IMG/VR virus record: IMGVR_UViG_3300044798_000551
Coordinates: 1 to 28,278 of that record
Origin: a virus
Reading direction: 5' to 3' (one strand)
DNA length: 28,278 nt
A program made the translations under genes and the position numbers. Of this stretch, positions 2,510-23,238 are shown one piece after another. The notes under the pieces are model-generated. The model made no database searches, was not told the origin of the DNA, and worked only from the letters and a program-made list of their open reading frames with translations. Numbering within the stretch: the stretch's first letter is position 1; every line of letters begins with the position of its first letter.

Positions 2510-2719
2510 ATGAATAAGGACATATTGGGTTTGTTTTTCATCTTGTTTGGTTGTGTTAGCTGTGATCAAGAAGAAAAACCAGAAAAACTGGAGAAGCCAG
2601 AAAAACAGTCAACCAAGCCTGATAAACCAAAAACCACCAATACACCAGGAGTGTACTACGAACCTATTCCTAAATCTTCTCCAGGTGTTTATTATGAACC
2701 CTGCAAACCCAGCGGGTGA
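2510..2719 (+). CDS. Small putative lipoprotein with GVYYEP repeats
   Basis: 69 aa, start supported by GGAGG five bases or so ahead of ATG. The N-terminus has a short basic/polar head, a hydrophobic stretch (ILGLFFILFG) and cysteines at 15 and 18 that fit a type II signal peptide (LFGC or CVSC lipobox). The mature part is highly charged and Pro/Lys-rich (EKPEKLEKPEKQ) and carries GVYYEP twice near the C-terminus. Lipoprotein processing is inferred from the lipobox. An outer-membrane spanin or an exclusion lipoprotein would fit this size, but nothing specific points to either. Confidence 0.65.
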   Translation: MNKDILGLFFILFGCVSCDQEEKPEKLEKPEKQSTKPDKPKTTNTPGVYYEPIPKSSPGVYYEPCKPSG

Positions 2720-2762: not shown

Positions 2763-2969
2763 ATGTTAAGAGTTGGAGATTTAGTGCGCTACCACCAATA
2801 TTTTGGCATTGTCATAAATCCCTCTGGTGGAGAAATCAGCATCAAACATAAAGTAGAAATATTACTAGGCAACGGCCTAGTTATGAAAATAGAACCAGGG
2901 GGACTAACAGTGATAAAACTACCAAACAGCCAAGCCACCCAGAACTTCCACGAAGCAATAAAGAATTAA
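2763..2969 (+). CDS. Hypothetical protein, 68 aa, small beta-rich
   Basis: ATG preceded by AGGGAA. The start VGDLVRYHQYFGIVINPSGGEISIK and the following alternation of hydrophobic and polar residues suggest a small beta-barrel (SH3/KOW-like) domain. This is a shape guess only. It lies between the lipoprotein gene and the sigma gene on the same strand. Transcripts that run from here into the sigma gene would contain the hairpin at 2979-3010 that covers the sigma ribosome binding site. Confidence 0.6.
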   Translation: MLRVGDLVRYHQYFGIVINPSGGEISIKHKVEILLGNGLVMKIEPGGLTVIKLPNSQATQNFHEAIKN

Positions 2970-2978
2970 TTGCTAATC

Positions 2979-3010
2979 GCCTCCACTTATAAATAGTATG
3001 AAGCGGAGGC
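2979..3010 (+). promoter_or_regulatory. Hairpin hiding the sigma-gene RBS, with a late promoter in its loop
   Basis: GCCTCC (2979-2984) pairs with GGAGGC (3005-3010), and inside it, after one mismatch, CTT (2986-2988) pairs with AAG (3001-3003). The 3' arm contains the GGAGG Shine-Dalgarno of the ATG at 3017. The loop contains TATAAATA (2988-2995), the exact T4 late -10 sequence. A transcript starting about six bases past that motif would lack the 5' arm and leave the RBS free; a read-through transcript would fold and hide it. This logic is known for T4 genes e and soc; here it is inferred from sequence. Confidence 0.65.
2988..2995 (+). promoter_or_regulatory. T4-type late promoter (TATAAATA) for the sigma gene
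   Basis: Exact match to the T4 late promoter -10 box, 21 bases before the sigma-factor ATG, with an expected transcription start around 3001-3003 just ahead of the GGAGG. If active it would make the late sigma gene autoregulated. Confidence 0.6.
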
Positions 3011-3016
3011 AAATCC

Positions 3017-5191
3017 ATGCCCACAACAGAAATAGCAAAAACTCCTACAGAAATTCCTAATACGGATGTGCTTGCGAAAAGGATGGAAATCCAACCTCGT
3101 TCTTATTATTTCGACAATGAAGTATGCGAGCGCTTAATGCACAAATATGTCAAGGGAAGTTGCACAGACGTGAAGATACGTGATGAAATAATGAGCCACT
3201 CCGTAGAATTAATTAATCAAATCATCAAAACATATAATCTTGGGCACATCTATTCTGGAAAGGAAGAAAGTTCCATAATGGATTTATTTCAGTGCGCATG
3301 GATTCAGTTGGAGAGTATGTTATATAAATATGAGGCTAGACCACATTGTGCAAAGTGCTATAATAACTTACGTCCAAATAATTCAATACTATCAGAAGAT
3401 TACATTTTCGAAGAGCAATTAATTAAGAAAATAAAAACCTGCCCAAATTGTGGTGTAAAGTTAACAATTGATGGAATATATTATAAAGGGAAATCTAAGA
3501 TATTTAACCTTTGGTGCGTCAACCCAAACACAAAAGTATTAACTGATCAAGGAATATCTCCAATAAGTGGAGTATTAGATTGTAATAGGAAAGTATATGG
3601 GTTAGATCAACTGCAGAAAATAAATGGTAGTATTAAAAAACCAAAACAAAACACTCTAAAAATAACAACAAGACTTGGATATAACATCGAATGCACACCT
3701 GAGCATGGTCTCTACAAATTGGATCAAAACGGTCCAATTTGGGTTAAAGCTCAAGATATTATATTAGGTGATTTAGTCGGAATACAATATTCTCAGCAAT
3801 ACTTCGGCAATGATGACGACATTAGCGACATAATTCTAACTAAACCAAATGATTGGACACCACCAAAGAAAATAACCGAGGATTTAGCATATATCTTTGG
3901 ATTATATCTGGCAGAAGGATCATATAATCCTGATATGGTCAGTATTTACAACATCGAAGATGAGGTAAAAGAGTTTTTTGCAAATAAGCCATTAGGATTG
4001 AAATGGGGATTTTATCCCAGGATTTGTGTCAATTATAACTGTTGCCAGAGATTTAGTGAGTTTTTGGATAAAATGGGTTTTGGCGATTGTCATGATTGCC
4101 ACACCAAGAAAATACCATCAAGATTACTTAAGATGTCAAAACAAAATATAAATGCTTTGTTGCGCGGAATGTTCGACGGCGATGGCCATTCTTCTAGACA
4201 TTTGGGTTATGTTGGCTACACTTCAACATCAATAGAGCTTATCGAACAAATCCGCATGTTATTGTTGAATATTGGTATCCTCTCCAAAATCACCAAAGAC
4301 AATCGCAAGGTGCGAATGTTCAAAAAACCAAATGGTAAAATTTATAATTCAAATCTAGCCGGTGCCTACCAAATAAACTTATCAAGCTTTGATTCTCTGT
4401 TGTTCTACGATAGAATTGGATTTAAAGCAAAAAGAAAACAAGAAAAGATGAAACATGTAGTAGCACCACAACCAATACTATTGGGATTAAATTCAAAGTT
4501 TAATAATCTATATAAAGCTCATGGACCAGCAGGACATTACGATGACATTCGAAAAGTACGAACAGGATCTCGCATATCTCTAGAAGTTGCCAAAAAATCA
4601 TTGGCCTTCTGGGATAATTATGAAGATAACCAGAATTATGTTTTCATTAGAGATAGAATAGAAGAATTAACTCGCGCTAGAGATAAAATCACTTGGCTAC
4701 CAGTCATAAACATAGAAAAATCGAGTAGTGAAGTTTGTGATATCGAAGTTAACTCTCCTAAACACTCTTATATTGCGAATGGATTTATATCACATAATAG
4801 CCAGGTCGCACGGACAGTAATCCTAGCTTATATTAAAAAAGACAAACGTGATCATAAGAATGGAGGAACTTTTAAGACACATGTTGAGGGTAGGATATTG
4901 TACCCCCATTGTGCTCTAGAAAGGTTTTTCCTAGAAGCCACAGAATTAAGCAAATACAACGAACAACACTTAAAAATATTAGAAGCAATCAAAGAATTAT
5001 ACAAGACAGATGAAAGACCACACGAGGGATTAATAACCAAATTGATGGATAAAACTGGTTTCCAAAGAACTATTATAAATGACTTCTTCCAAATGATTAA
5101 ACTGCGAGGCGCAGAACTCACTGATAGCCCAATCAACAATAAACCTGACACCATGAAAGATAGGATGGAAGACGAGGACGATTTATATTAA
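3017..5191 (+). CDS. Late-transcription sigma factor (gp55-like) interrupted by an intein
   Basis: 724 aa precursor; removal of the intein (residues 167-594) leaves 296 aa. The exteins join as KIFNLW-SQVARTVILAYIKK, a region-2-like helix matching the core of T4 gp55-type late sigma factors, which direct host RNA polymerase to TATAAATA promoters together with the sliding clamp. Before the intein there is a zinc-ribbon-like insertion (C111, C114, C142, C145) not present in the short T4 protein. After it comes a helix-turn-helix-like C-terminal domain (about 650-700) and an acidic tail ending EDEDDLY, which could be a clamp-binding tail (inference). GGAGG lies seven bases before the ATG. The intein should splice, because its terminal residues are intact. 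Identification as late sigma is supported by the promoter motifs in the window. Confidence 0.8.
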   Translation: MPTTEIAKTPTEIPNTDVLAKRMEIQPRSYYFDNEVCERLMHKYVKGSCTDVKIRDEIMSHSVELINQIIKTYNLGHIYSGKEESSIMDLFQCAWIQLESMLYKYEARPHCAKCYNNLRPNNSILSEDYIFEEQLIKKIKTCPNCGVKLTIDGIYYKGKSKIFNLWCVNPNTKVLTDQGISPISGVLDCNRKVYGLDQLQKINGSIKKPKQNTLKITTRLGYNIECTPEHGLYKLDQNGPIWVKAQDIILGDLVGIQYSQQYFGNDDDISDIILTKPNDWTPPKKITEDLAYIFGLYLAEGSYNPDMVSIYNIEDEVKEFFANKPLGLKWGFYPRICVNYNCCQRFSEFLDKMGFGDCHDCHTKKIPSRLLKMSKQNINALLRGMFDGDGHSSRHLGYVGYTSTSIELIEQIRMLLLNIGILSKITKDNRKVRMFKKPNGKIYNSNLAGAYQINLSSFDSLLFYDRIGFKAKRKQEKMKHVVAPQPILLGLNSKFNNLYKAHGPAGHYDDIRKVRTGSRISLEVAKKSLAFWDNYEDNQNYVFIRDRIEELTRARDKITWLPVINIEKSSSEVCDIEVNSPKHSYIANGFISHNSQVARTVILAYIKKDKRDHKNGGTFKTHVEGRILYPHCALERFFLEATELSKYNEQHLKILEAIKELYKTDERPHEGLITKLMDKTGFQRTIINDFFQMIKLRGAELTDSPINNKPDTMKDRMEDEDDLY
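3515..4798 (+). mobile_element. Intein with LAGLIDADG homing endonuclease in the sigma gene
   Basis: 428 aa, from C167 (CVNPNTKVLTDQG, block A) to N594 (FISHN), followed by Ser as the +1 residue. A block B-like ECTPEHGLYKL lies at 225-235. Two LAGLIDADG-like motifs are present: LAYIFGLYLAEG (290-301, acidic E300) and ALLRGMFDGDG (380-390, acidic D389). The end reads CDIEVNSPKHSYIANGFISHN, the usual block F/G pattern. All residues needed for class 1 protein splicing (Cys1, block B His, penultimate His, terminal Asn, +1 Ser) are visible. It sits in the conserved region-2 helix of the late sigma factor, an unusual host gene for an intein. Confidence 0.9.
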
Positions 5192-5205: not shown

Positions 5206-6777
5206 GTGATTACTGAATCTCGAACCTCAAATTATCTCAACAAACTTGGTTGGCGTATCCATGAAGCAGATGGCAGCGAGTATTGTCCTGCTTGTGCTCT
5301 AAGAAATGGGGCGAACCAATTAATTACTGGAGACATAATTAAAAGCTATCAAATAGGGGCAATTACTTTCATCCAGTGTCAATCACTCAACTGTACAAAT
5401 AGCCTTATTATTCCTTTGCACGGACCTGAAGCAACACCTAGGATGGAAGAAGTGAATAATCTAAATCCTAACACCTGTCCAGAATGTGGTGAAAGAGAAG
5501 AGACTAGATGTAGATGTAGGATTGGCGATAAAGAATGTAAAAACCACCATCATTGGGCAATGTGTAAAACTCATGGCAAGGTTAGTTGCACCCAGCCACC
5601 TAATGGCTCATATCCAATCCCTAACTGCCCCTGCTACCAGAAAGTGCAAACAGAGGGTATCACCAACTCTCGCGACCCATTACCATATCATCAACGACTA
5701 GGATCTGATAAACATGAACAGAAGATGTATGATTTTTTGTGTAGCCAAACAAAGAGTGCAATAGATTACTATCATGGCGCATTAAAGTCTGGTGATGATG
5801 GCTTACTCAAAAATGCAAGCGACCTTTTGGGACGTATCCGGAGAGTACATGGTAAATATATAGACGATCATTACAAAGATGTACAAGCATTGCGTACAGC
5901 AAAAGAAAGATTCTCACACTATGCACAAGCAGACCACCACAAGCAAGTGTCTGACTTCCTTCAGAAGTTAGAAGACCATGTAAATAGAATGCGGGGAATT
6001 CAGGTGAAAGTAGAAGACATCGCTACTGGCCTAGAGGCCCATCTCCGCCACCTATTTGAAGGTAGTAATAGAAGCCAGCGAGTAGGAGAGCGAGTAGCTA
6101 GACATATAGGAAGAGCCACAGGAAAATATGAAAAGAAGCCTGGAGCAAAAATGGTTCCAGACCCTGACAAAGTAATAGCTCGAAAATCTGTTGGCCTATC
6201 TGGAAAGAAATTCGGACGCTTCCACGGACAGCAAATGTCTGACAGCAAGCAAAAGCTCGTTCTAGCCGCACAATTCTTGAAAGACAACTATAACAAAGAC
6301 GAGCAAGAACTAGCAACTCTTGTAAAAACCTTTCCTTACAAACATGAACTCACCAGCATTGTTGACCACATGATAGCCACAACTTTAGGAGGTTGGAAGA
6401 AAGAAGGCACCCAGCTCGTAAATGAGACAGAACACATTGCCAACCCCAATAACTGGATATTCAATGAAGATGGAACAATCATCACTAGAAATAGAAAAAA
6501 ACTTAGCAGCATAGATAATTTATTAGTGATTAAAAGACTAAACGAAGCTTCAAGCCCACAACGGCAACAAGAATTTATCAATAATTCACCCAGTATACAA
6601 GGGAAAACTATGAGTAAAGAAGAACATGATAGGATTATTGCTGATGCTCTCAGTTTCATTGATTGGACAATTGAACCTGCTGGAAATAAAGACATAAATC
6701 GCAGGAAATTAGAAGTAGTTGATAACTTGCGATGTATTATGTTTATCAACAAATTCCAATTATCCACTGATAGATAA
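5206..6777 (+). CDS. Hypothetical protein with N-terminal zinc-binding clusters, 523 aa
   Basis: No known family recognised. The N-terminal 140 residues hold several Cys/His clusters: CPAC near 26-29, a CxxxxxC pair around 65-70, then CPEC, CRCR and a KNHHHWAMCKTHGK segment around 94-126. This looks like two or three zinc-binding modules. The remainder is charged and mostly helical with no membrane segment. It lies 15 bases after the sigma gene and just before the small terminase, so it may be co-transcribed with the packaging genes. The start is provisional: the GTG at 5206 is the first possible one after an in-frame stop, but the AGGGAG sequence ends on it, too close to serve as its Shine-Dalgarno. 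Confidence 0.7.
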   Translation: MITESRTSNYLNKLGWRIHEADGSEYCPACALRNGANQLITGDIIKSYQIGAITFIQCQSLNCTNSLIIPLHGPEATPRMEEVNNLNPNTCPECGEREETRCRCRIGDKECKNHHHWAMCKTHGKVSCTQPPNGSYPIPNCPCYQKVQTEGITNSRDPLPYHQRLGSDKHEQKMYDFLCSQTKSAIDYYHGALKSGDDGLLKNASDLLGRIRRVHGKYIDDHYKDVQALRTAKERFSHYAQADHHKQVSDFLQKLEDHVNRMRGIQVKVEDIATGLEAHLRHLFEGSNRSQRVGERVARHIGRATGKYEKKPGAKMVPDPDKVIARKSVGLSGKKFGRFHGQQMSDSKQKLVLAAQFLKDNYNKDEQELATLVKTFPYKHELTSIVDHMIATTLGGWKKEGTQLVNETEHIANPNNWIFNEDGTIITRNRKKLSSIDNLLVIKRLNEASSPQRQQEFINNSPSIQGKTMSKEEHDRIIADALSFIDWTIEPAGNKDINRRKLEVVDNLRCIMFINKFQLSTDR

Positions 6778-6781
6778 TATT

Positions 6782-7372
6782 ATGGAACCAAATACTGAAG
6801 CTGATGTTGAAGAATTGCTAGCCTCCTTACCTGATACTCCTGACTTATCAAAAGAAATTGCTGAAGTAGCAAAAATTACCCAACCTATACCACCTGCGCC
6901 TCCGAAGCCAATACAGCCTGTGCAAGAACCTGTACTAGAGAAAGATGTTATAAAAATAGCCTCTTCTGATTTATTGGTGCCAGGTGGTGAAGCAACAAAT
7001 CTGACTGCACCCTTCCTGGAATTATTGAAGACTTTCCCAACAATTGCCAATAAGATTATTGCAAATCATGCCTCTGACCGGGAACAAGTTGAGCAAGCAA
7101 TAAAATTTTTAGAAACTCAAATGAAGAATATGGGAAACAAATTGCCCGCTGTGATATTGGAGACTTGGGCTAAATTATTAGCAACTAAAGCAGAAATTAA
7201 TGCCAACGCCAACGGGGTCCTTGATTCAAGTGCTAAACTCCTAGCTGCCGCCAAGAACAACAACATCATAATCAATGTTGGAGATGACAATAAGTCTATT
7301 GGCGGACTTGACCTTGCTGCTTTGCTTGCGCAGCCTCAAAGAGATGATGAAGCACTAACCAGGAAGAAGTAA
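6782..7372 (+). CDS. Probable small terminase subunit (gp16-like)
   Basis: 196 aa from the ATG at 6782, which follows the previous stop by four bases; a longer frame begins at 6719 but overlaps the previous gene. The N-terminal third is acidic and then Pro-rich (PIPPAPPKPIQPVQEP). The middle and C-terminal parts are helical and Ala/Asn-rich (KFLETQMKNMGNKLP, KLLATKAEINANANG). Small terminases recognise phage DNA and stimulate the large subunit. The assignment rests mainly on position directly ahead of the large terminase (stop and next ATG one base apart) and on size and helical character, not on a motif. Confidence 0.6.
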   Translation: MEPNTEADVEELLASLPDTPDLSKEIAEVAKITQPIPPAPPKPIQPVQEPVLEKDVIKIASSDLLVPGGEATNLTAPFLELLKTFPTIANKIIANHASDREQVEQAIKFLETQMKNMGNKLPAVILETWAKLLATKAEINANANGVLDSSAKLLAAAKNNNIIINVGDDNKSIGGLDLAALLAQPQRDDEALTRKK

Positions 7373-9263: not shown

Positions 9264-10548
9264 ATAAAAAATTTACACTTTATCTAAGCAAACATACCTT
9301 ATGAAGATTAGTAAGGCTTATAAAATTCGGATCTATCCCACCTGTAAGCAGAGAAATCAGTTTGCCAATCATTTTGGTGCTGCTCGCTTCATTTACAATT
9401 ATTTCCTGGAAAGGAAAGAAAAACAATTTAGAAAAACCAAAAAATCGGAAAGTTTCTTGAAGATGTGTAAACATCTTACAGAGTTAAAGAAACAAGAGGA
9501 CTATTTATGGTTAAATGAACTTAGTAGACAGAGCCTAGCAAACGCAATTGCAAATTTGGATGATGCTTATAATAAATTCTTTAAAAAGAAAGCAGAATGT
9601 CCAAGTTTCAAAAATAAATACTCAAAACAAGCATTTAAAATTTGTAGTCCAATTTGTTCGGTTAGAGGCCAATTTATTCATCTTCCGCTCATAGGAGATA
9701 TCAAATGTGAACACAATTTACCTGAAGAATATAAGTTATTCTCAATAACAATAGTTAAAACTCCAACAGATAAGTATTTTGCTTCAATAAATGTAGAAGA
9801 GGAAATACCTGATCCAGTTGTTAACCCAAAGAAACCTGAAATAGGGATAGATTTTGGTCTTAAAACTTTCATAACTATTTCAGATAGCAGGAAAATAGCA
9901 CATCTTAAACCCTTCAAAAAATTACTAAAGAAAGTCCAGAGATTTGCAAGAAGAGTGGATAGAAGAAAATTAGAGAAAATACAGGTTCCAAACAACAAGA
10001 AATTAAGCAAACAAGAGAAAAGTGAAAAACACAGATGCGATACAATTACCAGAACAGTGGTTTCCGCAAGGAGGGCAGTTGCACGGAGAAAATTGGCAAT
10101 TCTCCATGAGAAGATCAGCAATTTGCGTTTAGATTTCCTTCATAAGTTGTCTTCCAAGATGGTTGACGAGAGCCAAGCAATTTATCTTGAAGACTTAAAC
10201 TTGAAGGGAATGATGAGCAGATATGGGAAAGGGATTTGTGATAGTGGGTGGTATGAATTTACGAGACAACTCACTTACAAAGGAAAATGGTATGGTTGTT
10301 ATGTTGGTAAAATTGACAGGTTCTATCCAAGTTCTAAGATGTGTAATAAATGTAAAAATATAAACCAAGGTCTTGAATTAAAGGATAGGACTTGGGTTTG
10401 CAGTTGTGGTGCTCATCACGATAGGGATCTAAACGCTGCTAAAAACATTCTTGAATACGGTCGGGCTGACCGGAATTTATGGACAGGGAGAGAAAGGGCT
10501 GGAAGCAGTCTCATTGAACTGTCAAAGCAAGAAGTAAGCTGAGCCAAG
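9264..10548 (+). mobile_element. TnpB-only IS605-family element inserted at the 3' end of the terminase gene
   Basis: The element runs from just after the TerL stop to the GGGTGGGATC junction at 10548. It contains one gene, tnpB, and no tnpA transposase. The right end is defined by comparison with the relic at 1881-1970, where similarity stops at GCTGAGCCA (10546 here). The left end is not visible as a repeat; only 37 bases separate the TerL stop from tnpB. If copy A of the terminase tail travelled with the insertion, the mobile unit begins near 9177. Mobility is probably by guided cleavage and recombination (homing) or by a TnpA in trans. Confidence 0.7.
9301..10542 (+). CDS. tnpB: TnpB, RNA-guided nuclease (IS605 OrfB)
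   Basis: 413 aa, full length. The N-terminus (KAYKIRIYPTCKQRNQFANH) is typical of the family. RuvC motifs: GIDFG with D184, YLEDLNL with E297, and HDRDLNAAKN with D374/D376. A zinc ribbon lies between the last two (C348, C351, C367, C369). All catalytic residues are present, so the enzyme should be active. TnpB cuts DNA next to a short TAM, guided by omega-RNA made from its own 3' end. No clear Shine-Dalgarno precedes the ATG. The guide expected from this copy is terminase sequence, so its likely target is a terminase gene lacking the insertion. Confidence 0.93.
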   Translation: MKISKAYKIRIYPTCKQRNQFANHFGAARFIYNYFLERKEKQFRKTKKSESFLKMCKHLTELKKQEDYLWLNELSRQSLANAIANLDDAYNKFFKKKAECPSFKNKYSKQAFKICSPICSVRGQFIHLPLIGDIKCEHNLPEEYKLFSITIVKTPTDKYFASINVEEEIPDPVVNPKKPEIGIDFGLKTFITISDSRKIAHLKPFKKLLKKVQRFARRVDRRKLEKIQVPNNKKLSKQEKSEKHRCDTITRTVVSARRAVARRKLAILHEKISNLRLDFLHKLSSKMVDESQAIYLEDLNLKGMMSRYGKGICDSGWYEFTRQLTYKGKWYGCYVGKIDRFYPSSKMCNKCKNINQGLELKDRTWVCSCGAHHDRDLNAAKNILEYGRADRNLWTGRERAGSSLIELSKQEVS

Positions 10549-10638: not shown

Positions 10639-11045
10639 CTTGTCAACTCCAATTTAGGATCAATTGCCCAATAATCATCGGCAGTGATCTCTATATTTGG
10701 ACAGTCGCTATTCATCTTTGCTAGGTGAAGAATTTCATTAATGTCATCATATAACTTGACAAATTTATTCTTAATTATTTTATATTCAACAAAATGTTGT
10801 GGGTGTGGCCGGTCTTCAAAAAATTGGCGAACTTTCTCTCTAGTGTCTAAATACACCTCTTTACCAAATAAGAATTGATACCACTTGTGTTTTGTCTTAT
10901 CTTCAACCCTGATAAACGTATCAAGAAACGCATTGAGATCTTTCTCCTGCCTTTCTTTGATTATTTTGAGGCTTGCCTCACACATCTCTATTACACGAGA
11001 GGCTAGAATTGCTCTAGTCGAATGGCAATCGCTCAAATCGCTCAT
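10635..11045 (-). CDS. Hypothetical protein, 136 aa
   Basis: Helical, charged, no signal peptide or membrane segment; no family recognised. Notable segments are KIIKERQEKDLNAFLDTFIR and a Trp/Phe-rich KHKWYQFLFGKEVY. Its ATG overlaps the stop of the upstream 233-aa gene (ATGA), so the two are translationally coupled. Its stop overlaps the stop of the displaced terminase tail on the other strand. Confidence 0.7.
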   Translation of the reverse strand: MSDLSDCHSTRAILASRVIEMCEASLKIIKERQEKDLNAFLDTFIRVEDKTKHKWYQFLFGKEVYLDTREKVRQFFEDRPHPQHFVEYKIIKNKFVKLYDDINEILHLAKMNSDCPNIEITADDYWAIDPKLELTS

Positions 11046-11743
11046 ATCGCCCCCATCATTTCTTCCACCACTTCTTCTAGGTTCACATCTGGAGACTTTG
11101 AGGCTACCCCTATTCTTCCCTTGGTGTTAATCGAAATCATCGTATCTTTCTTATCTTTCAGAGTAATTTCCATGCCCACAACTTCACTTTCTGTTTCTGC
11201 CTTCTCTGTTTCTTCTAGAATTTTCTTAACGCCATCATAGTTGTTGGAGGTTTTAATAGTGCAACTATCAATACTACCTATACTTACTTCCATATTCTTG
11301 ACTTTCAACTTATTAACATTTTGTACCACTCCTTTTTGCTCATACTTTCCTAAAATCAAGTCTAAATTTATAATCAAGGGAGCAAAAATGAACTGATCAG
11401 CTAACTTCCCATCTCCACAAAGCGCCACCAAATAGGTGTTTAGTTCTACTATTTGTCTTTTTCCCCCAACTATCATTACTTTATCGTCTGGAACTAATTT
11501 GAACTTCGCTGCCTTGATACCATCAATTTCTTCACTTTCATCTTCCCAGGTCAAGTGGTCAAATTTGCTGTATTTATAGGTCTGAAGGTAGGTGAGAGCA
11601 AGCCAATCTCCTTTTTTCAATATCATACCTGGTGTCAAACCACCCAACGCTGCCACATCCTCAACGACTTTAACCAACAAGGCTTCTTTTAAAGTAGTGT
11701 TGAGCCAAAGTTTTTGGGCTGTAATCGCTAATTTGAATGACAT
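11042..11743 (-). CDS. Hypothetical protein, 233 aa
   Basis: Start supported by AAGGAG seven bases upstream of ATG. The length is close to that of T4-type sliding clamps, and beta-rich stretches are visible (GMILKKGDWLALTYLQTY, VGMEITLKDKKDTMISI). No clamp motif is convincing, so no function is assigned. An acidic helical segment sits near 175-192 (EETEKAETESE). It lies between the 141-aa gene and the 136-aa gene in an operon that begins with the UvsW-like helicase. Confidence 0.7.
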   Translation of the reverse strand: MSFKLAITAQKLWLNTTLKEALLVKVVEDVAALGGLTPGMILKKGDWLALTYLQTYKYSKFDHLTWEDESEEIDGIKAAKFKLVPDDKVMIVGGKRQIVELNTYLVALCGDGKLADQFIFAPLIINLDLILGKYEQKGVVQNVNKLKVKNMEVSIGSIDSCTIKTSNNYDGVKKILEETEKAETESEVVGMEITLKDKKDTMISINTKGRIGVASKSPDVNLEEVVEEMMGAI

Positions 11744-12214: not shown

Positions 12215-15200
12215 TCATATTCTGAACCTCTTTTTCACAAAACTTATACCATCAATCTGCTTGTCGCCAATTATTACCTTCACCGGATAGCCAGTGTCAA
12301 TCGCGGCTTTCAATTGCTCTCTGCTATGAGAATAAAGATAACGATTGGAGAGATGAAAGAACGCATATACTCTAGCAAAGCCACGTTCATTAATTCTAAC
12401 AGCACGACCAATTACTTGAGTAAAATCTGATCTCATTTTACCACCGCCTATGATTATAAGGTTCTCAGTACCCGATAAAATATCGAACCCCCGACGTAAA
12501 ATTTTGCTTCCTATTAAACATTTTAATTCACCACTCTCAAACTTTAGTATAGCCTCATTTCTCTTCTTCCTTGGAGTTTCACCAAACAGAAATTGTGAGT
12601 TTGGAATAAGGCTTTCAAGTTTCACCCCCAAAGGCTCTATAGGGGAGGTATCTATAAGAATAAGAACTCTCTCACCTTTCTCCATCAAAGAGCGAGCAAG
12701 TTTTGCTGTCATATTCTGGAGTTTCTCATTATCGACAATATCCTCCTTCATTGCTATGTCATAAGTCCTACTATCCTGTCTGTCGCCCTCCATCCCCACT
12801 CCAATAAAACAACACCTAACTGGGATAATTCTACCAGTTGCTTGCACTTCTGCCCTACTTGTTTTATAAATCACACTTCCAAGATTTTCTTTAAGTATGA
12901 GGTTCTGGACAGGCTTCTTGGTATCCCAAGGAGTACCCGAATGACCATATCTTCTACGCCCTTTGAATATGTACCGTAGTAAATAAGCATATTGTTTGCT
13001 AGTACAAAGGTCGCAATTGTGTACAATAACACCATTAGCATCAAATGATTGTGCACCATCAACAGAAAAATCAAGTAGTCTCCTATATGCATCTAATTCC
13101 ACCTTCTTTACCAATTCAGTAGTAAAACCAGTAAGTTCGTCTATTTCAGCGACATATCCTAATAATTCCTTCTTTAGATGATCAACAAAAGCAAGCCATT
13201 GGCCATCATCCTTTTTATTAACTCTTTTTCCCCAAGCAGTCATCACGCCACAACCAATATGTTTTGCGACCTTTGTATCAGATATTCCGAAAAATTCCCT
13301 TGCCTGGCTATAAGTGGTTATGTCCATGGTAGCCAATTCATTAATATCATGTCTCCATCTCATTAAGGTGTCTAAACTCACCATACCAGTAGGAAAATAC
13401 CCATTCAAACCCAATATTTTCAATAATCTGTCTTGGGACAAACCAGAAGATAACCATTTTCTTAAAAACATAGAAGCATAAATATGGCGATTTCCTGACA
13501 ATTTAACTCTTTGCGATTGTGATCTCGCCAATTTTCTTTCAAATCTAAACCCAGCCAATTCACAAAACTTAACATAATCCTCACCATGAATTTTTACCCT
13601 CCAAGTGTTTGCATGTTTTGGAGATTTTCTCTTATTCTCTGTGGTTACATACGAACTTATCCCTAAATAAGATAAGAAGATCTGCGATTGTCTAACGACT
13701 TCATAATCAGTACAACCAAACTTGCAATAATGCTGATAGGCCGTTCCTTCTGAATCAAACAAGCCCGATAATAAACCAGCAGCGCAATTGTGATTTGGAA
13801 TTGTAATGCCAAGTTTGATATTACCCATCTTACGTCCTTTTTTGAACCCTAATTCCGATATCCAATCAATAAACTTCTCCGAATTAAGACAGATCACAAG
13901 ATCATCACGAATATTGCTACGACAAGTGGCAAGTCCATCCCAAAGGAGAGCCATTTCCTTTGTCATTTTAATCCAATCTTGTCTGTCTTTTCTAACTCCA
14001 TATCTGATCTGTTTATCACTCAAAAAATGTCCATCGCCTATAAACAAACCAAGATGATACCATCTCTTGAAATCGTCTGATTCACGATTGGTGCTAATTA
14101 TAGGAGCAGAGCATAAAAGCACATCATCAACCAATAAATCTTTAGCGTATTTATCAACACGTCTGCCTTCAACCAAAGTTGCTATTTTATGTTCTTTTGA
14201 ACATATTAGGGTACGATTATTACCAGTAGTTATCTTCAGTGAATCAGAATATTTTTCAGCACAACTAGTTATCGGATATGATCGATTTCCAACAACAGCG
14301 CTGACATTATCGCCTCTAACAACTATCTCATATAGCGTTTTCGCTGGCATCAACCCTCTATTTGTAGAAATCAAAGTATCCTCAGCAACGCATTCATCAC
14401 AAATCAACATATCACACTTTGAGATAAGTTTCTGGATAAGCCTAGCCTTCTTAATTCTAGTAGAATACCACTTCAATCTTCTATTCCATTCCTGCTCGCG
14501 ATAATAAGTGGTGAAATATTCAATATAATCATCAATCTGATCAACCCAATTTTCAGTAATCAATAACTTATCAGCAATATGCTTGGGGAAGATATCAAAA
14601 ATTTTCTGGTCCTGGGTCTCAACAATATCGAATAACATCTTTGAGGCTTTAGCCTTACCTATCTTGATATCTTCCTTCTTTGGCTCTTTAGGCAGGGATA
14701 CAGATTGAATGCTGCCAACTATCACCAAATTATTGTTAGGTAAGAAACCATAACAAAATTGCCCTATATCATCCTTATGAACAACACCTCGAAGTTTCAA
14801 TTGCCTTATTATTTGATCTAGAACGATTATTTGCTCTGTTATTATGACTGTCGGACACCTAAACAACTTGACTTGCCCACAAATCAAAAGCGTCTTTCCA
14901 CTTCCTGTGGGAGCATCTATAATACCTATTTCGTTGTCGCAACTTGCCTGTAAAGCCTCTACTTGATAATTTTCTAGGGTCATTCCTTCTATGAAATCTT
15001 TGGTTATTTGATCCTTCTGTGGAGCAGGATAATTCGGAGCCATCCTCTCATCTACTACTTCTAACGGTATATGATGCTTCTCACAACAAATCTTCAATTC
15101 TTCAAGGAAAGGAAGAGCTAGACGTTGCAATTTGGCGTTATATTTCCGATAAACCCCATCCCATTCCCCATCTGTGTCAATGTAAAAATGTCTAGGATCA

Positions 15201-15292
15201 ACCACACTGAAATGCTTTGCCAGCGTCTCATCGCAATCAGGAGTTATTTGTTCCAAATAGATGTGATGATTGTCGCGGATATAAGCAAGCAC
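12215..15292 (-). CDS. uvsW: UvsW-like SF2 DNA/RNA helicase interrupted by an intein
   Basis: 1025 aa precursor; splicing out residues 301-759 leaves 566 aa, close to T4 UvsW (587 aa). The N-terminal domain is followed by Walker A (APTGSGKT, 127-134), motif II completed only after splicing (LICDE-CDLC), motif III-like GHSGTPW, and C-terminal helicase motifs including SKILRRGFD and QVIGRAVR. UvsW branch-migrates and unwinds recombination and R-loop intermediates in T4 and helps the switch to recombination-dependent replication. The start is GTG at 15292 without a Shine-Dalgarno. A TTAAATAG late-promoter-like box lies 13 bases upstream, so late mRNA may have a very short leader. Helicase activity should need intein removal because motif II is split. 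Confidence 0.88.
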   Translation of the reverse strand: MLAYIRDNHHIYLEQITPDCDETLAKHFSVVDPRHFYIDTDGEWDGVYRKYNAKLQRLALPFLEELKICCEKHHIPLEVVDERMAPNYPAPQKDQITKDFIEGMTLENYQVEALQASCDNEIGIIDAPTGSGKTLLICGQVKLFRCPTVIITEQIIVLDQIIRQLKLRGVVHKDDIGQFCYGFLPNNNLVIVGSIQSVSLPKEPKKEDIKIGKAKASKMLFDIVETQDQKIFDIFPKHIADKLLITENWVDQIDDYIEYFTTYYREQEWNRRLKWYSTRIKKARLIQKLISKCDMLICDECVAEDTLISTNRGLMPAKTLYEIVVRGDNVSAVVGNRSYPITSCAEKYSDSLKITTGNNRTLICSKEHKIATLVEGRRVDKYAKDLLVDDVLLCSAPIISTNRESDDFKRWYHLGLFIGDGHFLSDKQIRYGVRKDRQDWIKMTKEMALLWDGLATCRSNIRDDLVICLNSEKFIDWISELGFKKGRKMGNIKLGITIPNHNCAAGLLSGLFDSEGTAYQHYCKFGCTDYEVVRQSQIFLSYLGISSYVTTENKRKSPKHANTWRVKIHGEDYVKFCELAGFRFERKLARSQSQRVKLSGNRHIYASMFLRKWLSSGLSQDRLLKILGLNGYFPTGMVSLDTLMRWRHDINELATMDITTYSQAREFFGISDTKVAKHIGCGVMTAWGKRVNKKDDGQWLAFVDHLKKELLGYVAEIDELTGFTTELVKKVELDAYRRLLDFSVDGAQSFDANGVIVHNCDLCTSKQYAYLLRYIFKGRRRYGHSGTPWDTKKPVQNLILKENLGSVIYKTSRAEVQATGRIIPVRCCFIGVGMEGDRQDSRTYDIAMKEDIVDNEKLQNMTAKLARSLMEKGERVLILIDTSPIEPLGVKLESLIPNSQFLFGETPRKKRNEAILKFESGELKCLIGSKILRRGFDILSGTENLIIIGGGKMRSDFTQVIGRAVRINERGFARVYAFFHLSNRYLYSHSREQLKAAIDTGYPVKVIIGDKQIDGISFVKKRFRI
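13016..14392 (-). mobile_element. Intein with LAGLIDADG homing endonuclease in the helicase gene
   Basis: 459 aa from C301 (CVAEDTLISTNRG) to N759 (GVIVHN), followed by Cys as the +1 residue. A block B-like CSKEHKI lies near 364-370. LAGLIDADG-like motifs are HLGLFIGDG (413-421, D420) and LLSGLFDSEG (507-516). A later helix-turn-helix-like segment (LSQDRLLKILGLNGYFPT) may help DNA recognition. Splicing residues are all present. The insertion point is inside the DExx (Walker B) motif of the host helicase, a conserved active-site position of the kind inteins favour. Confidence 0.9.
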
Positions 15293-19625: not shown

Positions 19626-19826
19626 TTATCTCTTCGACGGCATTTGACTATGTGCTTCATTTTGTGCTTTGTGCTCCTCACCTAAACGTTTGAGTATCCA
19701 AGCACGCTCCTCAGCAGTCTTAAACCTCAATTCATCAAAGCTATAGCCACCATAATATTTTAATTGAAATTCTTGCTCTTCTAGGTGTTCCCACCTAGCC
19801 TGACACTCCTCCGCCGTTGGTGGGAC
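19626..19826 (-). CDS. +1 frame extension of the gp26-like gene (probable frameshift product)
   Basis: The frame codes for VPPTAEECQARWEHLEEQEF, QLKYYGGYSFDELRFKTAEE and RAWILKRLGEEHKAQNEA, ending at TAA (19626-19628), a helical charged protein like the small partner of tail-assembly chaperones. It has no ATG, GTG or TTG between the upstream in-frame stop (near 19858) and the TTG in DELRF, so it cannot start by itself in the ordinary way. It overlaps the end of the gp26-like gene in the +1 frame, over TTT-TTT-CGT-CCC. Reading both frames would add 66 residues to the gp26-like protein. A sequencing error in the run of six A/T bases would give the same picture. Confidence 0.6.
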   Translation of the reverse strand, partial: VPPTAEECQARWEHLEEQEFQLKYYGGYSFDELRFKTAEERAWILKRLGEEHKAQNEAHSQMPSKR

Positions 19827-20829
19827 GAAAAAAGCTCTCCGTAACCGGCAAGCTTATCTTCATTTCATTATTACAATCAGGACACTTAACAATAATTCGC
19901 AAATCAATACCTGGTTCAGCATCTTGCAAAGTCTCTCTAATAGTAGAACTATCCCTACTATGGAATTTTGCGATAATCTTCTGAATTTTAGTCTTATCAG
20001 ACACACCATTAACATTAAGAATAAGAAGATTGAGATTTTCCTCAATAGTAGTATCAAGATTAATTTCATTTCTCCCAATAATATCGCCCGTCCTTACACT
20101 CCTAACTTTTGCACCTTTGAGCTTCTCAGTAAACTTTTGTTTTCTCAAGATGACTTCGATGTCTCTGCCACGCATAAAGCGAACTTCAACCCACATATCC
20201 TTCTTAGTAATTTCAGAAAGGTAAGGAAGATGAATTCTCAAAGGCTCTTTCTGCACTTTTGGACTCTTAATATTTTCTGCAAGCTGATTAAGATCATAAG
20301 TCTGCAAGCTCTGTTTCTGACACTCCTCATTGTTACAGGTCAATTGAAACTCATAATTATTGCCATGTGTAATGCCACGCAAATAAAACAACAGGAAACT
20401 TCTATCTCCGACTAGCAAATCAAGAGCATTAAAAGTTGCATCTGGAAATCTAACACAATTCTTATACACCCACTCAATAGACTGCCCCGTCTGTGCCAAT
20501 CTAGCAGTAGCCAAAATCTTATCAACATCTAAACCAAAAGGACGAACCTCAATCCAGCCATCCGGCAACCTGCCCTCATAATATAAACCCTGGCTCGGAA
20601 GCCTAATCTTTTCCCAGGGAAGCAAATTCTCTGCTGTTTGAGAAATAATCAAATCTACCAACTCTTCATTACTGGTGGTAGCCTTTGCTGCTTCTGATAA
20701 ATCAACTTTAGGAACAGACAAGTCCCTTACGTCCCGTACCTTGTCTGCCTCTGGATTAACTGTAAGTTCCGGCTGTGTCCTCTGACCGGACTGTCCAGGA
20801 AGTGGGGATAATGATACTTCTTTTGCCAT
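19795..20829 (-). CDS. gp26-like baseplate hub / tail-assembly-chaperone-like protein
   Basis: 344 aa. After a Pro/Asp-rich N-terminal leader comes the typical core: IRLPSQGLYYEGRLPDGWIE, VRPFGLDVDKILATARL, and a zinc-binding pair (C in LTCNNEEC and IVKCPDC) flanking the helical middle, ending SLPVTESFFRPT. This matches gp26-type proteins of T4-like phages. AGGGAG sits about eight bases ahead of the ATG but inside an inverted repeat that also spans a GTAAATAC box. The gene follows the tail tube gene, the usual place of tail-assembly chaperones, and a +1 frameshift near its end would produce a longer form. Role as hub component or chaperone cannot be told from sequence alone. Confidence 0.75.
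   Translation of the reverse strand: MAKEVSLSPLPGQSGQRTQPELTVNPEADKVRDVRDLSVPKVDLSEAAKATTSNEELVDLIISQTAENLLPWEKIRLPSQGLYYEGRLPDGWIEVRPFGLDVDKILATARLAQTGQSIEWVYKNCVRFPDATFNALDLLVGDRSFLLFYLRGITHGNNYEFQLTCNNEECQKQSLQTYDLNQLAENIKSPKVQKEPLRIHLPYLSEITKKDMWVEVRFMRGRDIEVILRKQKFTEKLKGAKVRSVRTGDIIGRNEINLDTTIEENLNLLILNVNGVSDKTKIQKIIAKFHSRDSSTIRETLQDAEPGIDLRIIVKCPDCNNEMKISLPVTESFFRPTNGGGVSG
19822..19833 (-). other. Candidate +1 frameshift site
   Basis: In the zero frame the minus strand reads TTT-TTT-CGT-CCC-ACC, and the extension frame is entered by skipping one base. The P-site tRNA could slip from TTT to TTC, or from CCC to CCA; both re-pair well. The zero-frame stop TAG follows ten codons later (19795-19797). 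No stimulatory structure was established. Confidence 0.45.
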
Positions 20830-20834
20830 GGGTA

Positions 20835-20869
20835 AATCTCCCTTGATGAAGTATTTACTCTAGGAGATT
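20835..20869 (-). promoter_or_regulatory. Hairpin hiding the gp26-like RBS, with a late-promoter-like box in its loop
   Basis: AATCTCC (20869-20863) and GGAGATT (20841-20835) are perfect complements on the minus strand. The second arm overlaps the AGGGAG Shine-Dalgarno, and the first overlaps the stop codon of the upstream tube gene. Minus-strand GTAAATAC (20858-20851) lies in the loop. Read-through RNA from the tube gene would fold; RNA started at the box would not contain the first arm. Same design as at 2979-3010. Confidence 0.6.
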
Positions 20870-22429: not shown

Positions 22430-23210
22430 ATAACCCTTTGGCTTTATTGCAGTTGCCACAAAGCAACTGCAAATTATCAGGGAAATTATTCTTAATAACC
22501 CATCTTACATCTATCTTCACAGTCTTTCGTTGTATGTTCCCATCATTATTGATATGATCAAGCTCAAGAAACCATTGATTACTCTCTCCGCAACATTTAC
22601 ACTTTCCTCCATAGTGTTCTATTACCTTCTTGCGACATTTTCTACAACGCTTACCATCTTTTGATTTTGCTAATTCTGGTTCTTTATGGTGTGGGCAAAT
22701 ACCATAATGTCCAACACCTCTATTGCAGTTTGCACACAGTATTCTTAAATCAGTTGGGAAATTATTTCTTATTATCCACGTCGTAAAATGCCCATTTCCT
22801 CGTGCTTTGCGTTGTTTGGTTCCTCCTCCATTTATATGATCAACTTCTAGGAACTCATACACATCTTCACCACAGCACACACATTTGTGTCCATAGTGAT
22901 TTAGGACTGTTTTGCGGTCTCTCATCCATTTTGCTCTTGATCTTTCTTTATGAATTTCACTACAGATTTTACATCTATATTTCTCATCTATTTGTAATTT
23001 ATTACCGCAACCAACACACTCATTTTGCTTTATACGATTTCTATGCTTTGCTAGATATCTATCGCTCGCTTTGGTGCTGCATATATCACATGCCACCTTC
23101 CCATTTGTTGTCGGTCTACTGCAATTTACACAAAGTCCTCTTGCCTTACGCCTCAACTTAATTTGATGTAGTTCTGCACTGGTGTATCTGTGTCTTTGTG
23201 GAGAAATCAT
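22395..23210 (-). CDS. Double-HNH endonuclease with zinc fingers
   Basis: 271 aa from the ATG at 23210, supported by GGGGAGG just upstream; the longer frame has no RBS. Two N-terminal zinc-binding modules (C27/C30/C41/C44 and C65/C68/C80/C83) are followed by two tandem HNH domains with nearly the same text: NHYGHKCVCCGED-EFLEVDHINGGG-LCANCNRGVGHYGICPH and EHYGGKCKCCGES-FLELDHINNDG-LCGNCNKAKGLYGVCPH. The DH pairs (124-125, 218-219) and downstream Asn residues (163, 255) are present in both. HNH proteins of this kind in phages act as free-standing homing endonucleases. The end overlaps the start of tube gene 2 by 35 bases. A GTAAATAG box lies upstream. Confidence 0.85.
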   Translation of the reverse strand: MISPQRHRYTSAELHQIKLRRKARGLCVNCSRPTTNGKVACDICSTKASDRYLAKHRNRIKQNECVGCGNKLQIDEKYRCKICSEIHKERSRAKWMRDRKTVLNHYGHKCVCCGEDVYEFLEVDHINGGGTKQRKARGNGHFTTWIIRNNFPTDLRILCANCNRGVGHYGICPHHKEPELAKSKDGKRCRKCRKKVIEHYGGKCKCCGESNQWFLELDHINNDGNIQRKTVKIDVRWVIKNNFPDNLQLLCGNCNKAKGLYGVCPHSSMQK

Positions 23211-23229: not shown

Positions 23230-23238
23230 CTATTTACG
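23230..23238 (-). promoter_or_regulatory. Late-promoter-like GTAAATAG box ahead of the HNH gene
   Basis: Minus-strand CGTAAATAG, with GGGGAGG and the ATG at 23210 following at the spacing seen for the sigma gene. One of a set of similar boxes. Confidence 0.35.

Follow-up and report, generated by a model that had tools for sequence, protein, structure and literature searches.

What is a presumed late promoter box doing inside a hairpin that covers the ribosome-binding site (RBS) of a putative late sigma gene? The question is raised by a short segment of a 28,278-base virus record from an uncultured T4-like phage, analysed here at its full length and called the window. The features concerned are as follows.

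2510..2719, plus strand: 69-residue open reading frame (ORF) upstream of the sigma gene, from the ORF list; no family match.
2763..2969, plus strand: 68-residue ORF, a possible source of read-through RNA, from the ORF list; no family match.
2979..2984, plus strand: 5' arm GCCTCC, from sequence and fold; predicted to be missing from RNA begun near 3001.
2988..2995, plus strand: TATAAATA, the presumed late promoter box, with the core TAAATA at 2990-2995; from sequence and from the enrichment of TAAATA before genes.
3001..3002, plus strand: start of transcription, placed by prediction roughly one helical turn past the box on the model of T4 late promoters, as described in the available part of PMC2988020.
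3005..3010, plus strand: 3' arm GGAGGC, holding the Shine-Dalgarno sequence GGAGG; from sequence and RBS opening cost.
3017..5191, plus strand: putative gp55-like late sigma precursor, with N-extein 3017-3514, intein 3515-4798 and C-extein 4799-5188 plus stop; from Pfam (intein), the relatives and the predicted fold of one relative (L030).

An earlier note on this DNA, made from the letters alone, described GCCTCC and GGAGGC arms pairing over the Shine-Dalgarno sequence of the sigma gene with an exact TATAAATA between them, and sequence and computed fold bear this out. Both 6-base arms are perfect, the box between them lies at 2988-2995, the whole element (2979-3010) spans about 32 bases, and the ATG of the sigma ORF follows at 3017, 7 nt past GGAGG. 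The hairpin folds with -14.0 kcal/mol (z -3.5), and none of 200 dinucleotide shuffles was equally stable. Shuffling restricted to the bases 5' of the promoter hid the RBS equally well in 3 of 200 cases; the first shuffle test, covering 35 sites, gave p 0.015 for the window site. The RBS opening cost was computed as the free energy needed to open the 14 nt before the start together with the start codon. It falls from 13.8 kcal/mol in read-through RNA to 6.3 in RNA begun at 3001, values that do not change when the RNA start is shifted by 2 nt either way, and both the cost and the gain are the largest of the 25 window genes computed. The note had further held that read-through RNA folds and loop-started RNA does not. 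The first half stands; the second is too strong, since a weaker 4-pair hairpin, GGCA/UGCC (-5.9 kcal/mol), persists in RNA from 3001 and reaches the end of the Shine-Dalgarno sequence and the AUG, and the site is thus opened rather than free.

Gene e of T4 is a proven case of a hairpin-gated late gene. Its two late promoters served as a yardstick and gave computed costs of 15.0 falling to 4.0 and 14.2 falling to 1.2 kcal/mol, so the opening costs are alike in size, whereas the late RNA of the window is opened less (6.3 versus 1.2-4.0 kcal/mol). In T4, the RBS of each of the genes e, soc, 49 and I-TevI is hidden by a hairpin that encloses a late promoter (PMC3014915, in the part available). The window resembles this class in that the Shine-Dalgarno sequence is hidden in read-through RNA, by computed folding only, and the position of TATAAATA would leave late RNA without the 5' arm. 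The assignment of this layout to the sigma gene is therefore well supported as a statement about sequence and computed folding. In the window, unlike in T4, the device guards the putative late sigma gene itself and would thereby complete a loop.

The same device was sought across viral contigs with the pattern CCTCC-TATAAATA-GGAGG, which occurs in at least 119 stretches. Among the matches listed, 31 of 95 distinct sites precede an ORF, compared with 10 of 60 for a reversed-box control, a rough comparison because the reversed pattern overlaps TATAAATAT and those sites were removed. The 31 sites (among the matches listed) have a median opening cost of 15.7 kcal/mol that falls to 4.3. They precede proteins resembling homing endonucleases and T4 structural proteins, as named by eye, and none of these 31 ORFs fits a sigma or gp55 profile.

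The identity of the guarded gene was examined separately. The ORF comprises 166 residues, an intein and 130 residues, giving a joined extein of 296 residues; the intein carries splicing and LAGLIDADG domains in frame (PF14890, PF14528), and intein-free relatives read W-S across the extein joint. The joined extein gave no match by phmmer in phages, PHROGs or PDB and no PHROG below an E-value of 0.08. Alignment of nine gp55 sequences with the sigma family by hhalign (E 0.17, 0.074 and 0.13) provided no gp55 link, and ten family members showed no phrog_234 match; one relative had a marginal hit (E 0.0055) to a PHROG annotated as RNA polymerase sigma factor. The structure predicted for L030 is of moderate quality (pLDDT 70, pTM 0.41). 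Its best PDB match is T4 gp55 in a promoter complex (7d7c_F; Z 12.2, rmsd 2.9, 118 of 137 aligned), and Foldseek gave a probability of 1.00 for gp55, with sigma factors as the best-ranked PDB rows. The model, which is of L030 and not of the window protein, has a sigma domain 2 fold. The designation "late sigma" in the earlier note is thus upheld by the predicted fold of a relative, and finds no sequence-family backing for the window protein. These results support a gp55-like sigma rather than a gp55-family (phrog_234) member, a name chosen because the fold matches without any sequence-profile link.

The proteins also differ in extent. T4 gp55 lacks sigma domain 4 and has about 185 residues, whereas L030 has 253, with helices 156-220 beyond the gp55-aligned part, and the window extein has 296 with a CxxC insertion. 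A C-terminal motif that binds the sliding clamp (gp45) is a trait of the T4 gp55 family. In the sigma alignment (A3), a CxxC...CxxC insertion lies within sigma domain 2 in some members, including the window protein, and all members have a C-terminal helical part absent from gp55. Inteins occur in the sigma genes of the window and apparently at least four relatives (L037, L038, L039 and L040); a shared FN(M/L)W/F motif precedes the intein in the window and in L037-L039, and in L040 the intein is located earlier. Interruption of the long domain 2 helix by the intein probably leaves the unspliced precursor inactive. Elsewhere in the window, a UvsW-like helicase gene at 12215-15292 is split by a long intein-looking insert with matches on both sides, 489-1874 encodes a Mom-like protein (PF25680) preceded by a weak nuclease-like match (PF18741), 9301-10542 is an IS605 OrfB/TnpB-type gene with TAAATA 40 nt upstream, and 11042-11743 has no family match.

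Whether the box is a late promoter depends on more than its exact form. The window holds five copies of TATAAATA against 2.45 expected, a number reached in 10 of 100 shuffles and hence not significant, and only the copy at 2988 precedes a gene. The core TAAATA lies within 40 nt upstream of 7 of the 34 window genes (0.59 expected, p 1.4e-6) and is the top hexamer there. For the late promoter of the earlier note, the exact octamer is by itself weak evidence, and the enrichment of the core before genes is strong evidence. Related contigs behave similarly, with 11 gene-preceding copies of TAAATA against 2.47 expected in G001, 15 against 5.03 in G007, 15 against 4.77 in G019 and 38 against 4.89 in G020, a 370-kb relative (p 7e-23, again the top hexamer). 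Enrichment was also found in G008 and G014 and was not significant in G009, G010, G013 and G016. The gp26-like genes of the window, G008 and G014 have TAAATA 26-30 nt ahead. In the available portion of PMC2988020, T4 late promoters are described as an 8-base box about one turn ahead of the start, and those of Aeh1 as varying at the first two box positions, which fits a fixed TAAATA core. As the most enriched hexamer before genes in both the window and the 370-kb relative, TAAATA is probably the late-promoter core. Genome-wide, inverted repeats flank TAAATA no more often than other A/T hexamers, which indicates that a hairpin effect is limited to few genes. In many genes of G007 (L056-L063), TAAATA lies 10-14 nt before the ATG, a spacing at which late RNA would begin nearly at the start codon and give near-leaderless late messages.

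Two further window sites combine TAAATA with a possible RBS effect.

23231..23236, minus strand: TAAATA at -26 of an HNH-like gene (named by eye) starting at 23210; 12.3 falling to 5.7 kcal/mol.
20852..20857, minus strand: TAAATA at -28 of a gp26-like baseplate gene (19795-20829), with the flanking stem AATCTCC/GGAGATT.

The first is weaker than the sigma site, with 21 of 200 shuffles equally good. The second was considered as another full-strength gate and rejected (6.9 to 5.6 kcal/mol, 82 of 200 shuffles equally good), and a candidate at G007:69262 was weak (7.3 to 6.3 kcal/mol). At G007:135008, perfect 9-base arms, GTACCTTTG and CAAAGGTAC, surround TAAATA just ahead of a gene of unknown function (10.4 to 0.9 kcal/mol). 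The tail tube-like gene at G019:31518 (L376) has its box in a tight RBS-hiding hairpin, CAACTG-TAAATATA-CAGTTGGG (14.0 to 3.4 kcal/mol).

Relatives of the sigma gene allow the arrangement to be viewed in a wider sample. No close relatives of the full precursor or the terminase were found in viral contigs; a query with the tail tube gene reached related contigs and, through them, a sigma homologue of 46% identity. Two alignment searches of viral contigs then returned 22 and at least 94 sigma relatives, 80 of which were kept, and bacterial genomes yielded none. Sixty-eight of the 80 loci were used, the others (L303, L304, L313, L331, L343, L344, L345, L348, L351, L352, L360 and L374) being copies or missing the N-terminus or upstream part. 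With L037-L040 the 72 loci gave 55 distinct upstreams; L302 was exchanged for its copy L031, which has a better start, and addition of the window gave 56. Start codons were assigned with a simple rule and may be incorrect in some cases, and the loci are not phylogenetically independent, with relatedness uncorrected. A same-strand UvsW-like helicase gene immediately precedes the sigma gene at 54 of the 57 loci examined. The window departs from this pattern: its helicase gene is on the opposite strand, at a distance of 9 kb.

Among the 56 upstreams, 31 belong to sigma genes whose start lies within the preceding gene, and these show near-chance numbers of TAAATA (2) and TATAAT (3). The remaining 25 carry TAAATA within 80 nt in nine cases (0.95 expected, p 1.9e-7) and TATAAT also in nine (1.29 expected, p 2.4e-6), both p values being uncorrected for kinship. 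Three of the nine TAAATA-bearing genes, those of the window, L305 and L306, have the box in an RBS-hiding hairpin, and the layout thus recurs in two relatives. The computed cost falls from 13.1 to 4.5 kcal/mol in L305 (1 of 200 shuffles of the 5' part equally good) and from 20.1 to 4.1 in L306, where the stem consists of TTGCAA/TTGCAA and more (0 of 200). The three stems have no sequence in common. When the evaluated TAAATA genes of each contig are ranked by gain, the sigma gene comes first in G020, the contig of L306, and second, after the tail tube gene, in G019, the contig of L305. The other six (L029, L031, L301, L307, L310 and L311) show little or no RBS gain, which indicates that the lock is not universal.

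We propose that positions 2979-3010 act as a two-layer gate that controls the late sigma gene and gives a self-reinforcing switch, a reading that we hold, with some reservation, to be the probable one. In transcripts running in from upstream, GCCTCC would fold onto GGAGGC and hide the Shine-Dalgarno sequence, so that little sigma would be made from such RNA. The first sigma would come from leaky read-through translation or from weak use of the box, as TATAAA, by a host sigma factor. This sigma would read TAAATA and steer RNA polymerase to the late-type promoter in the loop. RNA begun near 3001 would lack the 5' arm, and its ribosome site would be exposed. The sigma factor would in this manner boost its own translatable message, producing a delayed, self-reinforcing switch. 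No early promoter stands out upstream of the sigma gene.

Another reading keeps the gate and changes its reader: the box would be used by a host-type or an early or middle sigma. The late sigma would then be produced well from a nearby promoter of the early or middle class, whose RNA would be trimmed in the same way, and no feedback would arise. We consider this reading unlikely, though a serious competitor. The TATAAA of the box agrees with five of the six positions of the -10 hexamer, and TATAAT, in addition to its nine occurrences among the 25 sigma genes of the window family, lies within 80 nt of 13 of 21 gp55 genes. TATAAATA itself is found within 200 nt of the start in none of these 21 genes, T4 included, and TAAATA in six. 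T4 gene 55 is transcribed by early read-through from Pe40.4 and from the middle promoter Pm55 (PMC6024815, in the part available). At this gene (L002, locus 6601-7158, minus strand) the computed cost falls from 15.5 kcal/mol in read-through RNA to 4.3 in RNA from the TATAAT at -35, with none of 200 shuffles equally good; a Klebsiella phage gp55 gene gives 14.1 to 3.3 kcal/mol. These costs suggest that the same gate may guard T4 gene 55 with another promoter class, an arrangement for which no report was found in the portions of the literature examined. Gene 55 thus resembles the window in being a late sigma gene with a computed RBS-hiding fold relieved in proximal-promoter RNA, and differs in that the proximal promoter is of the middle type (Pm55), not late. 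However, the last T of TATAAT is absent from the window box, which has no good -35 and is the full 8-base T4 late box, and in G020 and G019 it is TAAATA, not TATAAT, that is enriched before genes. In the Vibrio phages VH7D (L287) and K491 (L008), the gp55 gene lies 8 nt past a same-strand head gene and may be made from late RNA; unlike the window, this is a simple operon without its own promoter or hairpin.

It is less probable again that the late promoter is real and the hairpin incidental, with read-through RNA rare or translated anyway and the stem without a role. A computed gain as large as that of the sigma gene occurs in 4.4% of 615 control genes (without TAAATA, cut at -16), the window stem is not conserved in most relatives, and the two short ORFs just upstream could keep ribosomes on the RNA. 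On the other hand, the same layout with different stems at the sigma genes of L305 and L306, and a predicted start that falls between the arm to be lost and the arm to be kept, argue for a function. That the hairpin works by RNA processing or as a transcription stop is very improbable, since a stable intergenic stem is all that favours it, no T-run follows on either strand and the hairpin is absent from the terminator scan output.

The gated, self-reinforcing reading has a precedent for each of its parts. In phage 7-11, which is phiEco32-like, a late promoter lies ahead of the late sigma gene (gp47), and a positive feedback loop begun by early read-through has been proposed; a stem-loop was also noted between genes 47 and 48, for which a role in aiding production is suggested (PMC8948821, in the part available). 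The sigma factor and promoter type differ from those of the window, and the role given to the stem-loop in the available part of that source is not RBS hiding in read-through RNA. A literature search, mainly of open-access papers, turned up no report of a phage sigma gene whose RBS hairpin contains a late promoter. Thus, the hairpin and late-promoter device (T4) and the proposed late-sigma feedback (7-11) are already known; their joining on the late sigma gene in three phages was found in no paper searched and is apparently new.

A broader generalisation is possible, if doubtful. Across a large T4-like family of uncultured phages, late sigma genes may repeatedly have come under a two-key lock, consisting of a hairpin that blocks read-through RNA and a promoter for the sigma factor between the arms. 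At least three phages would have built this lock anew, each from a stem unrelated to the others, and T4 gene 55 would be under the same lock with a middle promoter. Lineages would then differ only in promoter class, and the timing and sharpness of late transcription would be tuned by a swap of the box. Relatives that differ by such a swap would allow feed-forward and feedback control of one gene to be compared in a natural experiment. For T4, a gate of this type predicts that gp55 is translated poorly from Pe40.4 read-through RNA and well from Pm55 RNA. If the proposal for the window is true, the early-to-late switch would consist of a self-reinforcing circuit combined with a translational block on early firing, encoded in about 32 bases, and this would explain how a late sigma gene can be kept in an early-transcribed region without premature expression of the late genes.
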